This document shows, piece after piece, positions 24,534 through 28,905 of a stretch of 50,868 bases of DNA. The translations under genes and the position numbers were made by a program. Origin of the DNA: an uncultured Sulfurovum sp. (GTDB lineage Bacteria > Campylobacterota > Campylobacteria > Campylobacterales > Sulfurovaceae). How positions within the stretch are numbered: the first letter of the stretch is position 1; the number at the start of each line of letters is the position of its first letter. Location of the stretch: assembly GCA_902727935.1 (NCBI GenBank), contig CACVAX010000008.1, forward strand, positions 1 through 50,868, in the 5' to 3' direction. Under the pieces are notes generated by a model, which saw only the letters and a list, made by a program, of their open reading frames with translations, did no database searches and had not been told where the DNA came from.

Positions 24534-25451
24534 ATGATATTTGACTCCCTAGATTTTATAGAAAAACTCTCAATAGATGAACGATTAGAACACTTAGGCA
24601 ATAAAAAGAAAAAACCTTGCAAAATAAAAAAATTTCGCTCAAACATGATGCTTAATCCCTTAAGGCTAAAACATTTAAATAAAATAGATACCCTACCTGC
24701 TGATATGATTACTTTAAATCTTGAAGATGCCATTGCTCCTAGTAGAAAAAAAGAAGCACTTTATAATATTGCTCTTTTTTTGTCCCATTTAGAGTATTCT
24801 AATGCTTTTATTATCGTTCGTACAAACCCTCTAGATGAAGGTGGACGAGAAGAGATAGAATTTTTAAATAATTTTTCATTTGATGCAGTTCGTGTTTCTA
24901 AGATTAGAAGTAAATATGATATTTTAGAAACAGATATATTACTTAAAAGTGAAATAGAGATACATATTTCACTTGAAACTAAAGAAGCTTTTCAGAACTT
25001 GGCTACTTTTTCAGGTATTGAGAGATTTACTACTGCCAACATAGGAATACTTGACTTACTTACATCATTAGCACTTCCACAGTCACTCGTAGAACGAGAC
25101 AACCCAACGATTCACTACATACTTTCTAAATTCCTAGTCGATTCTAAAATAGCTGGTGTAAACCCCACCTCTTTTATGTTTCAAGAGTACAAGGATGTAG
25201 AAGGTTTTGAAGCTTGGTGTAAACTAGAAAAGAAAATGGGTTTCACCACCAAAGCTTGTATGGGACCTCTACAAGTTGAGATAGCGAACAGAGTTTTTAG
25301 TGTGGATGAAGAGGCTTTAAAGCGTGCTAGGCATATTAAAAAGGTATTTGAAGCTTCATCCCAAAAAGGTGAAAACGGGTTTATGGATGAGAAGTATGGG
25401 TTTATAGATGAGCCTATTTATCGAGATGCTTTACTAGTGTTAAATAGCTAA
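24534..25451 (+). CDS. HpcH/HpaI aldolase / CitE-like lyase
   Basis: This 305-residue TIM-barrel protein belongs to the HpcH/HpaI-CitE superfamily (citrate lyase beta, malyl- or citramalyl-CoA lyases). Visible marks are [16 protein letters not shown] near residue 36, the metal-site NLEDAIAP near 62, [14 protein letters not shown] near 94-107 (Arg of the CoA or substrate site), a glutamate in [10 protein letters not shown], and the terminal [20 protein letters not shown] pattern. A KACIHPxQ in relatives is KACMGPLQ here. There are no citrate lyase alpha or gamma genes nearby, so a stand-alone CitE-like lyase is more likely than citrate fermentation. The substrate is unresolved. Its stop codon abuts the RM remnant on the other strand. 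Confidence 0.75.
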
Positions 25452-25851
25452 GGTTTATCTTTCTCTACTTGTTCCATCTTAGGAGCTTGTGGATGTAGTG
25501 GTGCATGTCGTCCACCTGCTTGAATGATAAATGATGGTTCATCCCAAGCCCTTACTCTATTTCGTGATTAAAAAGTTCACAGGCATCTCCATTAGAGTAA
25601 GTCTTATTTTTAGCAGAAAGTGCAGAGTCTTTTAAATCATTCCTAAAACCTACAAAAAAGAGTTGACCTCTATCATCTTCTATACCTCTTGACTTTCCTG
25701 CCTCACTCCAACTCTGACAATTGCTAAAGTTTTTTTCAAATGTTTCCCAAATTTCTTTGTCGTACTCATTTGCCCAAATGATTTTAAAACCTGCTTTTTC
25801 AAATCCAAGGTCTAAACCTCCTGCTCCTGAAAATAGGGATATTATGTCCAC
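25452..25851 (-). pseudogene. remnant of a HaeIII-type cytosine-5 DNA methyltransferase
   Basis: The reading frame from a GTG at 25851 gives motif [21 protein letters not shown], and [16 protein letters not shown], almost as in M.HaeIII. It then jumps straight to [20 protein letters not shown], losing motifs II-III and the PP before the catalytic Cys. It jumps again to VGFRNDL (motif VIII), then to a piece ending NHE, and meets a stop. In another frame from about 25558 down to 25452 the sequence reads [20 protein letters not shown], the block before motif IX in this family, and ends at the CitE gene boundary. At least four separate deletions are needed and motifs IX-X are absent. It is inactive by any reading. 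The HaeIII (GGCC) affinity is inferred. Confidence 0.85.
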
Positions 25852-25860
25852 CCAAACAAC

Positions 25861-27471
25861 CTAATACATATTTTCTATACTTAAGTTATTAAAACCCTCA
25901 TACTTCTGAAAAGACAAAAGATATAAACTTTTTAATATATTTTCATCAACCTCTTTTAGCTCTTTAAATACGGTGTTTTCAATACCTTCTTGCTGTATAT
26001 CTTCTAGGACATCATCCATCACTTCTGGTAAAGCTTCAACTAATTTTTTAAATGCTTCTTTTTCTCCTGTTACGATTTCATAGATTTTATCTTCTTCATT
26101 TTCAATATCAAATCCCTCATTAGGAACAATCCATTTAGATTTTTGAGTCTCCCTATGAACAATATATTTAAAGAAGTTTTGTTGAAAATATCCCAAAACA
26201 TTACTATTAGATTTATCCAATTGCCTCACTATTTCAGAATTAACAATCTCTTCAACAGTTTTTTTATACACTTTAGCATCAAAAGTTAACTTTATTGGGT
26301 CTATCAAATTACTATTAAACTTCTTTAAATTCATCGTAAAGCTATATTTCTCAATAGTCTCTTTTACATGAATATATAAATCTTCATCACTAATAAAACC
26401 TAAATTATACTTCTCCACTGACTTCTCCAATTTATCTAAATATTTTTTTATTGCTAATCCAACCTCTTTAGCCAAATTTACAGGAACAGCATTACCAATC
26501 TGTTTATACTGTTCTGCCATTGAACCCTCAAAGACCCATTCATCAGGAAAAGACTGAATTCTTGCATTTTCTCTAACACTAAAAGGTCTTAACTCATCAG
26601 GGTGACATCGTTCCGTCTGTTTTTGAGCAGGGGTACATAACACTGTTAACCCTGCTTCATCCCAAGATAATCGTCTTGCAATTCCAGTTCTACCCCCACC
26701 CATAAAATAGGTACTTTTCATATAATCTCTAGCTACATCATCAGGTAAATCACGCCAACAGCCACCTGCTTTTACATACTTTAAAACAGCTTTTTTCTTA
26801 TCATTATAAATAGCACAAGCAGATGAGGGGACATCTTGTAAAATATCTTTTAAAATTAGCTTTTTATCATGTGGTTTAGGAAAAGAAAAATCTTCTCCTA
26901 CTTGCTCTCTTATATCCTTTCTGATACCTATAATAATAATTCTTTGTCTCTTTTGAGCCACAGAATAATCCACAGAATTAAGAACTTTATATTGAACTAC
27001 ATAGCCAACCTCTTCAAAAACTTTTATCATTGTTTTTAGAGTTTGTCCTTTATCATGAGAAACCAAACCTTTTACATTTTCAGCAAAAAACATTTTAGGT
27101 TTTAACTCTTCTAAAATTTTAGCAAAATCATAAAAAAGTGTTCCTCGTATATCTTCCATACCTTGTCTATTTCCTGCATAAGAGAAAGATTGACAAGGAT
27201 ACCCACCAGAGAGTAAGTCTATCTCTTTATTACTTTGTAGATATTTGCCAATACCCTCTTGTGAAATTTTTTGAGTATCCCCTTCTATTACATTCCATTT
27301 AGGACGGTTAACTTTTAATGTTTTCACAGCCCATTTATTTATTTCTACAGTTACTTCCGTATTAAACCCTGCTTGTTCCAACCCTAAAGCCAAACCACCT
27401 GCACCTGCACCTGCAAAGAGTTCTACTACTGTATATTTAGAGGTATTATTTCTTTTTAATTTATTAATCAT
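25861..27471 (-). CDS. cytosine-5 DNA methyltransferase fused to a core-deleted Eco47II-type restriction endonuclease
   Basis: Residues 1-350 form a complete m5C methylase. Motif I is VVELFAGAGAGGLALGLEQA, GGYPCQSFSYAG carries catalytic Cys93, AENVKG is motif VI, and DYSVAQKRQRIIIIGIR is motif VIII. The recognition region contains TPAQKQTERCHPDE, followed by RENARIQSFPDEW and IGNAVP (motifs IX, X). The recognition-region block resembles GGWCC/GGNCC enzymes. From about residue 357 the chain continues as an Eco47II-type endonuclease: FISDEDLYIHVKETIEKY, DPIKLTFD, then GYFQQNFFKYI and the GFDIENEEDKIY strand. The next residues, EIVTGEKEAFKKLVEALP, belong to the family's C-terminal end, so the segment with the catalytic E-x-K is missing. 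The methylase is probably active and the nuclease dead. Family matches are from memory. Confidence 0.82.
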   Translation of the reverse strand: MINKLKRNNTSKYTVVELFAGAGAGGLALGLEQAGFNTEVTVEINKWAVKTLKVNRPKWNVIEGDTQKISQEGIGKYLQSNKEIDLLSGGYPCQSFSYAGNRQGMEDIRGTLFYDFAKILEELKPKMFFAENVKGLVSHDKGQTLKTMIKVFEEVGYVVQYKVLNSVDYSVAQKRQRIIIIGIRKDIREQVGEDFSFPKPHDKKLILKDILQDVPSSACAIYNDKKKAVLKYVKAGGCWRDLPDDVARDYMKSTYFMGGGRTGIARRLSWDEAGLTVLCTPAQKQTERCHPDELRPFSVRENARIQSFPDEWVFEGSMAEQYKQIGNAVPVNLAKEVGLAIKKYLDKLEKSVEKYNLGFISDEDLYIHVKETIEKYSFTMNLKKFNSNLIDPIKLTFDAKVYKKTVEEIVNSEIVRQLDKSNSNVLGYFQQNFFKYIVHRETQKSKWIVPNEGFDIENEEDKIYEIVTGEKEAFKKLVEALPEVMDDVLEDIQQEGIENTVFKELKEVDENILKSLYLLSFQKYEGFNNLSIENMY

Positions 27472-27671
27472 ATCTTCCTTAATGATTTATATTTTTTATC
27501 TATCGATACTTTAAAAACCAACAACTTACTATCATCATATTTATAAATATAATCAAAAATATTATAAGGCTTTTAAAATATTGGACATTTTTTCTCACTT
27601 ATTTTCAATAAACCTATTTTATCTAATAAGATGTAAATAACCATAGAAACATTTCAAATTGTCATACTATC

Positions 27672-27680
27672 TGTTATAAT
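27672..27680 (+). promoter_or_regulatory. extended -10 promoter of the carboxynorspermidine dehydrogenase gene
   Basis: TGTTATAAT is an extended -10 (TGn plus a perfect TATAAT at 27675-27680), 35 bases before the ATG at 27715. There is no convincing -35, as is usual for sigma-70 promoters in Campylobacterota. The rest of 27472-27714 is AT-rich upstream sequence shared with the divergent methylase gene. Confidence 0.6.
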
Positions 27681-27714
27681 TTCTAAAATAAAAATTTTAA
27701 ACAAAAGAGTCAAA

Positions 27715-28905
27715 ATGTCAAATAAAACCCTAATTATCGGTGCTGGTGGTGTTGGAAATGTTGTTGCTTTTAAATGTGCTATGAATGCCCAAACCTTTGG
27801 TGAGATCACCCTTGCAAGCCGTACAGTTTCTAAGTGTGATGCCATTGCTGCTAATGTTAAAGAACGCGTTGGTGTAGAGATTCAAACCTCATCTCTTGAT
27901 GCAGACTCTGTTCCTGAACTTATTGAACTCTTTAACAAGGTGAAACCAAATGTTGTTATAAACGTAGCACTGCCTTACCAAGACTTAACCATTATGGATG
28001 CTTGTGTAGCTTGTGGCATAGACTACCTTGACACAGCCAACTATGAACACCCTGACACAGCCAAGTTTGAGTACAAAGAGCAGTGGGCTAGAGATGATGA
28101 CTTTAAAAAAGCAAACATCATGGCACTTCTAGGTTCTGGTTTTGACCCTGGTGTGACCAATGTCTTTTGTGCTTATGCTCAGAAACACTACTTTGATGAG
28201 ATTCACACCATCGACATACTGGACTGTAATGCTGGTGACCATGGTTACCCTTTTGCGACGAACTTTAACCCTGAAATTAATCTACGTGAAGTATCTGCAA
28301 ATGGACGTTACTGGGAACACGGTAAATGGGTAGAAACAAAACCAATGGAAATCATGCAAGTTTGGGACTACCCAGAGGTAGGAGAGAAAGATTCTTACCT
28401 ACTCTACCATGAAGAGATGGAGTCACTTGTAAAACACATAAAAGGACTTAAACGCATAAGATTCTTTATGACCTTTGGAGAGAGTTACTTAACCCATATG
28501 AAATGTTTGGAAAATGTGGGAATGCTTGGCATTAAAGAAGTAGAGCATAAAGGAATGAAAATCGTTCCTATGGAGTTCCTATCTACACTACTACCTGACC
28601 CAGCAACACTGGGTGAACGAACCACTGGTAAAACAAACATTGGTATCTATGCTAAGGGAATCAAAGATGGCAAAGAAAAAACTATCTACATCTACCAAGT
28701 AAGCGACCATGAAAAATGTTATGAAGAAGTGATGAGTCAAGGTGTTTCCTATACTACAGGTGTACCAGCCATGATAGGGGCAAAACTTATGTTAGAAAAC
28801 AAATGGCAAAACAAAGGGGTTTATAACATGGAAGAGTTTAACCCTGATCCGTTTATGGAGGAGCTTATGGTTCAAGGGCTACCTTGGAAAATTATAAAAG
28901 AGTAA
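27715..28905 (+). CDS. carboxynorspermidine/carboxyspermidine dehydrogenase (saccharopine dehydrogenase-like)
   Basis: This NAD(P)H enzyme condenses aspartate beta-semialdehyde with putrescine or diaminopropane to give carboxyspermidine or carboxynorspermidine, the alternative spermidine pathway of Campylobacterota and vibrios. The 396-residue protein has the Rossmann motif IGAGGVGNVVAFKCA at the N-terminus, then LPYQDLTIMDACVACGIDYL, ALLGSGFDPGVTNVFCAYA and the LDCNAGDHGYPFATNFNPE block, which distinguish it from true saccharopine reductases. With speA in the same window it fits agmatine-derived putrescine going to spermidine; the partner decarboxylase (NspC) is not in the window. It is a single gene, closed by a hairpin shared with murA. 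Its codons are somewhat richer in C than its neighbours. Confidence 0.9.
   Translation: MSNKTLIIGAGGVGNVVAFKCAMNAQTFGEITLASRTVSKCDAIAANVKERVGVEIQTSSLDADSVPELIELFNKVKPNVVINVALPYQDLTIMDACVACGIDYLDTANYEHPDTAKFEYKEQWARDDDFKKANIMALLGSGFDPGVTNVFCAYAQKHYFDEIHTIDILDCNAGDHGYPFATNFNPEINLREVSANGRYWEHGKWVETKPMEIMQVWDYPEVGEKDSYLLYHEEMESLVKHIKGLKRIRFFMTFGESYLTHMKCLENVGMLGIKEVEHKGMKIVPMEFLSTLLPDPATLGERTTGKTNIGIYAKGIKDGKEKTIYIYQVSDHEKCYEEVMSQGVSYTTGVPAMIGAKLMLENKWQNKGVYNMEEFNPDPFMEELMVQGLPWKIIKE

Follow-up and report, generated by a model that had tools for sequence, protein, structure and literature searches.

A methylase–endonuclease frame in an uncultured Sulfurovum, probably part of a recently inactivated restriction–modification island

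When a methylase is found joined to a broken endonuclease, is it a restriction–modification (RM) system on its way to becoming a lone methylase, or the debris of one that has ceased to work altogether? The question is raised by a 536-residue open reading frame (ORF), free of internal stops, on contig CACVAX010000008.1 of an uncultured Sulfurovum sp. (GCA_902727935.1; herein G000), a draft genome of 60 contigs that is 84.6 % complete and 5.8 % contaminated. The stretch analysed, hereafter the window, comprises 50,868 nt and makes up the contig (C8) in its entirety. Within it the ORF begins as a 5-methylcytosine (m5C) methylase, M1, and continues as an Eco47II-type endonuclease, R, with the remains of a second m5C methylase, M2, adjoining it downstream (Table 1). 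An original prediction made from the sequence had described one frame running without a stop from a complete methylase into an endonuclease deprived of its catalytic core, and had proposed a route from RM system to orphan methylase. Both the single frame and the loss of the core are borne out here; what had been overlooked were two additional residues in motif I of M1, and the leftover pieces of M2. Our assessment is that the locus is probably a recently inactivated composite type II RM island, and that the fused gene is now most likely functionless, yielding no nuclease and probably no methylation.

With regard to the endonuclease half, membership of PF09553 (RE_Eco47II) is not a chance similarity, the whole protein scoring 128.3 bits against a cut-off of 25.9. 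Alignment of residues 357–536 to this profile, the check that had been suggested, returned a match in two stretches of one frame, with residues 357–464 corresponding to profile positions 1–104 and a C-terminal stretch to positions 173–201 of 202, and with E-x-K in neither. Comparison with the full-length R of the closest relative, G163, to which R residues 1–113 are 94 % identical, reveals that 68 codons (204 bp) are missing, namely R residues 114–181. The in-frame deletion foreseen earlier is therefore present, and joins NEEDKIY to the very EIVTGEKEAF block that had been named, but exceeds the 50–60 residues then estimated. The lost segment contains E115, K117, N118–N124, E151, K155, R177 and R178, all invariant in 25 full-length R proteins; D104 is retained, with E115, K117 and the strands up to residue 180 gone. 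With the active site assigned from conservation and an EcoO109I-like fold, the deletion would take out nearly the whole central β-sheet of the predicted structure, leaving an N-terminal part that includes the longest helix of the model. Having neither a complete D...E-x-K site nor the core sheet, R cannot work as a PD-(D/E)XK nuclease, its catalytic core lost by in-frame deletion. A search by sequence for a relative of R in the PDB gave one chance match only (E 0.78).

The fusion itself has a different origin. In the window a TCA codon stands where the M1 of G163 ends in TAA, and the GTG start of R is retained directly after it, with GGAG a few bases upstream in the alignment of the two. Among 99 distinct M1 loci, 13 carry M1 and R as one open frame, 62 carry them separately and 24 are without R, where R was counted if it was on the same strand and no more than 400 nt downstream, and an intact M1 was not demanded; the last class thus takes in L140 (R approximately 1 kb further), L120, L137 and L152 (R on the other strand) and L112 (contig end). 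It also includes L113, L114, L118, L121 and L124; its members are close relatives of M1, mostly Bacillota by record titles. Both halves are full length in nine of the 13 fusions (L007, L019, L022, L045, L069, L074, L075, L077 and L089), the other four being the window itself, G178, whose R is broken, L096, truncated at a contig end, and L076, where R is full but M1 carries a frameshift further up. In a tree of 33 M1 proteins (those at least 66 % identical to that of G163 with R beside them, plus three Bacillota-like sequences, and including the long-branched, frameshifted L076), the fused state requires five changes, at least four of them on starred branches, and in G163, sister to the window, the two genes are separate. 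Fusion of M and R is hence a recurrent state that in itself leaves both domains complete. Given nine full-length fusions, and a nearest relative that is unfused and keeps its stop, the fusion did not stem from the deletion and is no part of the same accident. The start codon of R is kept in most of the fused frames, so R may still be made separately in these.

Turning to M1, the claim of a complete methylase stands at the level of Pfam, as PF00145 spans residues 13–343 of the fused ORF over the entire profile (1–324 of 324, E 8.2e-89). The protein is 95 % identical to its G163 counterpart over 338 columns and, insertion aside, conforms at all 126 near-invariant positions (conservation of 97 % or more across the 43 other M1 proteins); what we take to be motifs IV (PCQ), VI (ENV), VIII and X (GNAVP) are all there. 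The claim is weakened, however, at motif I, the loop that holds S-adenosylmethionine (SAM) in m5C methylases. Rather than an uninterrupted F-x-G-x-G-G, the window has FAGAGAGGL where FAGAGGL is usual, a 6-bp tandem duplication (a third GCAGGT unit) having added two residues. All 43 other M1 proteins of the alignment lack this insertion, and both M.HhaI and M.HaeIII show a two-residue gap opposite it. A degenerate DNA pattern for FAGAGAGG was found in only one of 175 family genomes, the window's own, and scanning the collected loci in six frames recovered the longer motif from window copies alone, against 172 normal motifs (overlapping loci being counted repeatedly). Two extra residues at this position mean that the copy may be no methylase at all, and M1 activity would probably be lost or weak.

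The second methylase is more severely damaged. M2 has net internal deletions of 81, 198, 69 and 40 bp, with a stop after the 40-bp one, and at its 3′ end approximately 236 nt of coding sequence are gone, up to the stop of a convergent lyase gene; what remains of this NgoPII/HaeIII-type enzyme matches PF00145 in fragments only. In the sister genome G172, two contigs hold the interval between the same lyase and nspC: one (L209) has a complete RE_NgoPII (PF09521) with M2 there, the second (L208) an AbiTii-domain ORF with M2. The window pieces display 86–87 % DNA identity to the G172 copies and 77 % to the M2 of G163; being closer to G172 at a shared site, M2 looks resident, with the M1–R cassette brought in beside it. 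The first bases ahead of the window M2 resemble those of G163, and this suggests an exchange at the start of M2. The order M1–R–M2 is also seen in G012, G163, G207 and L109. The M2 of G163 (L044 1985–2560) is damaged too, lacking 24 bp near its 5′ end and ending after 192 codons in unrelated sequence, and M1 and R in that genome are full length despite this. More broadly, the lyase–nspC interval appears to be a hot spot for defence genes, holding the broken M1–R–M2 in the window (25452–27714), RE_NgoPII and a methylase in L209 (2066–3934), and the AbiTii-domain ORF and a methylase in L208 (1301–3180).

Table 1. Features of the fused RM locus and its flanks (positions in the window)
Feature	Position	Strand	Basis and remarks
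Fused ORF, M1 then R	25861..27471	-	536 aa
M1, m5C DNA methyltransferase part (residues 1–351)	26419..27471	-	PF00145; GGNCC-type by association with Eco47II-family R
Motif I with extra GCAGGT unit, FAGAGAGG for FAGAGG	27395..27417	-	Pattern scan and M1 alignments
Place of the M1 stop, TCA against TAA in G163	26419..26421	-	DNA alignment and junction table of 47 loci; creates the fusion
R, N-terminal part (R residues 1–113)	26080..26418	-	PF09553 profile 1–104; starts at former GTG
204-bp deletion junction	26076..26088 (approximate)	-	Imperfect 13-bp direct repeat, GATAGAATCTATG / GATAAATTTTATG in G163; DNA alignment
R, C-terminal part (from R residue 182) and stop codon	25861..26079	-	PF09553 profile 173–201; protein alignments
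M2 remnant, HaeIII/NgoPII-like m5C methyltransferase (GGCC type)	25454..25851	-	PF00145 fragments; DNA alignments and anchor measurements against copies in G172 and C27 (same genome)
Left flank, HpcH/HpaI-family lyase	24534..25451	+	PF03328; convergent to RM genes; synteny, same neighbour in G172
Right flank, carboxynorspermidine synthase-like (nspC)	27715..28905	+	NF043000, 400.6 bits, under its cut-off of 800

The sequence shows an Eco47II-type M1–R cassette, GGNCC-type by family, standing beside what is left of the NgoPII/HaeIII-type methylase at the site where the sister genome has an intact NgoPII system; the cassette is one frame because a sense codon occupies the position of the M1 stop. 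R has dropped its 204 bp between two short direct repeats, and with them E-x-K and the core sheet, M1 has a 6-bp tandem unit duplicated in its SAM-binding motif, and M2 has suffered its four internal deletions and 3′ truncation. These would all be ordinary lesions, presumably due to slippage or to deletion between short repeats once selection had ceased to maintain the genes. A direct-repeat origin is clear for the R deletion and, by eye, for two of those in M2. Since an active GGNCC nuclease would be expected to cleave a chromosome whose sites (10 in the window) are left unmethylated, R was probably dead before any loss of M1 activity, or died along with it. Several observations sit less comfortably with inactivation. 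The direct-repeat explanation is weak for the other two M2 deletions; M1 and the R remnants are stop-free and bear the mark of purifying selection, as would also fit a kept product; the remaining M1 motifs are intact; and the loss of M1 activity is read from the motif I insertion. Nor is the order of loss certain, as in G271 (L076; also L165, Sulfurospirillum sp. W8) a full-length R continues from the end of an M1 that carries a frameshift further up, along with LCQ for PCQ and FTGAGG for FAGAGG; a failed M1 can therefore occur, in assemblies at any rate, next to an R that looks intact. The proposal of an inactivated island is independent of that order, and we hold it no less probable for this case.

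Whether the remnants have drifted was assessed against G163, with dN/dS values of 0.10 for M1, 0.04 for the N-terminal part of R and 0.22 for its C-terminal part. Changes were also split by branch using six outgroups, with unassigned changes excluded. Nonsynonymous and synonymous counts were 8 and 20 on the window branch against 6 and 24 on that of G163 for M1; 3 and 11 against 3 and 12 for the N-terminal part of R; and 6 and 5 against 8 and 3 for the C-terminal part, where replacements are many on both. By neither measure was the relaxed selection sought in the R remnants apparent as an excess of replacements on the window branch, meaning that the losses are recent or that the remnants are still selected; a recent loss requires no new function.

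The phase of the deletions was considered as a separate sign of selection, and was dropped. In-frame cases number seven of the nine catalogued (R −204; M2 −81, −198 and −69; G163 M2 −24; G013 R −270; G015 R), with M2 −40 and G178 R out of frame, which gives P 0.008 under an expectation of one third. Short repeats within these coding sequences are, however, in phase about half the time, and under the share measured in these genes P becomes 0.04–0.12; the list was moreover drawn up post hoc and leaves out the frameshifts of G260, G148 and G271. Deletions that are mostly in frame consequently need no selection for a product.

The fate of R in relatives provides a broader setting. Matches to PF09553 came from 35 of 175 genomes of the family and from 29 of 398 of the order, with eight in common, making 56 genomes altogether. 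R is full length in 42, cut by a contig end in six (G097, G020, G103, G084, G078 and G194), a weak partial match in two (G480 and G488) and broken in six, of which G000 is one. In G013 (L051 5148–6480), residues 1–32 of R are joined in frame to 123–151 and then to unrelated DNA, and in G178 (L080) M1 is fused to residues 1–72 of R with the remainder out of frame; M1 is open with a normal motif I in both. G015 (L050 7531–7797) has both R ends in one 99-codon frame with M1 not beside it, and R is frameshifted in G260 (L079) and G148 (L048), the latter starting near a contig end but shifting frame at the active site. The proposed passage from RM system to lone methylase is hence seen independently in G013 and G178, which are cleaner cases of it than the window, where the copy may be no methylase.

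These two genomes also bear on whether M1 of the window could nonetheless be an active orphan methylase, still methylating GGNCC despite its longer motif I loop and trailing the R remnant as an inert C-terminal tail. Their retention of M1 beside a dead R is in keeping with that possibility, as are the preservation of every other near-invariant M1 position and the M1 dN/dS value given above. G000 has no functional cognate endonuclease, the fused ORF being the only PF09553 gene found in it, although at 84.6 % completeness a second copy is conceivable. Neither G013 nor G178, however, has two residues inserted into the SAM-holding glycine loop, a change absent from the 43 other M1 proteins, from M.HhaI and M.HaeIII and, as an exact motif, from every other family genome, and we therefore consider an active methylase, although the leading alternative, unlikely. 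Another m5C methylase of G000 (G000:C12:29773-30955; L174 and L175) is matched in two pieces that do not share a frame, and one of the two contains a stop.

Inactivation presupposes that the lesions exist in a cell, and an artefact of assembly or strain mixture, whereby the deletions and duplication would be found in none, has to be weighed against it. The draft state and contamination of G000 leave room for such an error. The bin also holds a second nspC–murA contig (L213 1188–3923; G000:C37), whose proteins are 90 and 93 % identical to those of the window, and G000 may accordingly mix two strains or species. Against this, the order speA-...-RNase T2–lyase–[RM]–nspC is the same in the window and in G172, the junction repeats, at no more than 13 bp, would be too short to mislead the usual assemblers, and similar lesions recur in the assemblies of other genomes, all of which makes an artefact quite improbable.

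Less probable still is that the protein has been selected as it stands, its N-terminal helical part and C-terminal helices being kept as a dimerizing or DNA-binding module acting on the methylase or on gene expression. The kept frame and the 3 nonsynonymous to 11 synonymous changes in the N-terminal part of R would agree with this, as would G015, which has independently kept both R ends in one small frame with the core gone. By analogy, the long helices of EcoO109I enter the minor groove according to PMC7337904, and may have a putative match in helix 55–85 of R. Low divergence since the loss would, however, explain these counts equally well, some half of such deletions should fall in phase anyway, kin have lost R by frameshift (G260 and G148) or out of frame (G178), and the modelled remnant would be without nearly all of its sheet. 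A general scheme, by which Campylobacterota Eco47II-type pairs repeatedly fuse and afterwards lose nothing of R but its catalytic core, the helical DNA-binding or dimerizing tail altering what the methylase does and the 6-bp repeat of motif I acting as a slippage-driven, reversible setting of its activity, is scarcely credible.

Site avoidance was examined as a trace of past activity and was not used, because other sites are depleted in the window too. Observed against expected sites number 3 and 45 for GGCC, and 9 and 29 for GGWCC, alongside 1 and 12 for CCGG, 3 and 16 for GCGC, and 12 and 28 for CCWGG; GGNCC sites total 10. All 11 other samples (ten relatives and C27 of this genome) have fewer GGCC sites than expected, and in G028 and G168 GGWCC does not fall short. 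In 15.5 kb of G049 (L058; 55 % G+C, full-length R), GGWCC occurs twice for 26 expected and GGSCC six times for 21, with CCGG and GCGC at expectation, and the depletion of GGNCC sites there, and only there, looks specific.

As to the surroundings of the locus, its nearest relatives found are Campylobacterota, and nspC is present in 28 of 34 genus genomes. The closest named record carrying a counterpart of the fused gene, JALVXC010000152.1 ('Campylobacteraceae bacterium isolate M10'), agrees fully with G163 in both M1 and R. Nothing points to a recent mobile source in the plasmid and phage collections searched, in which tblastn matches of at least 80 % query coverage were confined to five plasmid records (48–54 % identity), with no phage record.

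The wider interest of the family lies in its set of R losses, in six genomes, beside full-length relatives and with M1 open or altered, from which the order and rate of loss can be traced. This touches on the disputed question of whether the decay of entire RM systems is the main source of solitary methylases. As presented in PMC4176335, the origin of lone methylases by loss of R was proposed in earlier work cited there, and is disputed, with Oliveira et al. (2014) reporting such decay of whole systems to be rare within species. The window copy adds a warning, in that completeness by Pfam, where R is dead, is no guarantee that a methylase is an active orphan.

Amongst known systems, the Eco47II-type GGNCC RM system of G163/JALVXC010000152.1 (PF00145 and PF09553) is the closest, sharing gene order and M–R junction with the window, but with the M1–R stop, a full R with E-x-K and a normal motif I; its M2 is truncated as well. 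The natural fusions of G207 (L069, 605 codons), G499 (L077, 602) and G168 (L022, 618) likewise run through M and R in a single frame, yet belong to the nine in which both halves are full length, and G207 has a complete M2 downstream. In a literature search, m5C methylases naturally fused to an Eco47II-type nuclease did not come up, which holds for that search only. Fused R–M polypeptides are classed as type IIC, for which an engineered, working Eco29kI fusion serves as a model (PMC3039593). That fusion similarly merges head-to-tail RM genes into one polypeptide through a few point changes, but is laboratory-made, places R ahead of M and keeps both activities, whereas the window has a dead R and an altered M1; the window chain thus carries both domains, with that of R incomplete, but not both activities, the endonuclease core being gone. 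EcoO109I (1wte; PD-(D/E)XK, RGGNCCY), with long helices that insert into the minor groove (PMC7337904), would resemble an intact R in modelled fold and in target core, the window R differing by the absence of the sheet and the E-x-K strand; AvaII (PD-(D/E)XK, GGWCC) is linked to EcoO109I by published work rather than by the searches made here. Metamycoplasma hominis has an Eco47II-type pair, and strain-specific deletions affect other RM genes there, as reported in PMC10305163. Finally, the NgoPII system of G172 (L209; PF09521 and a GGCC methylase) occupies the same chromosomal site, with the same neighbours, as the window M2, which by contrast is broken and has no RE_NgoPII beside it, the M1–R cassette standing in its place. 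The parts of the locus are known, and in combination they provide a new example, one for which a close intact relative exists.
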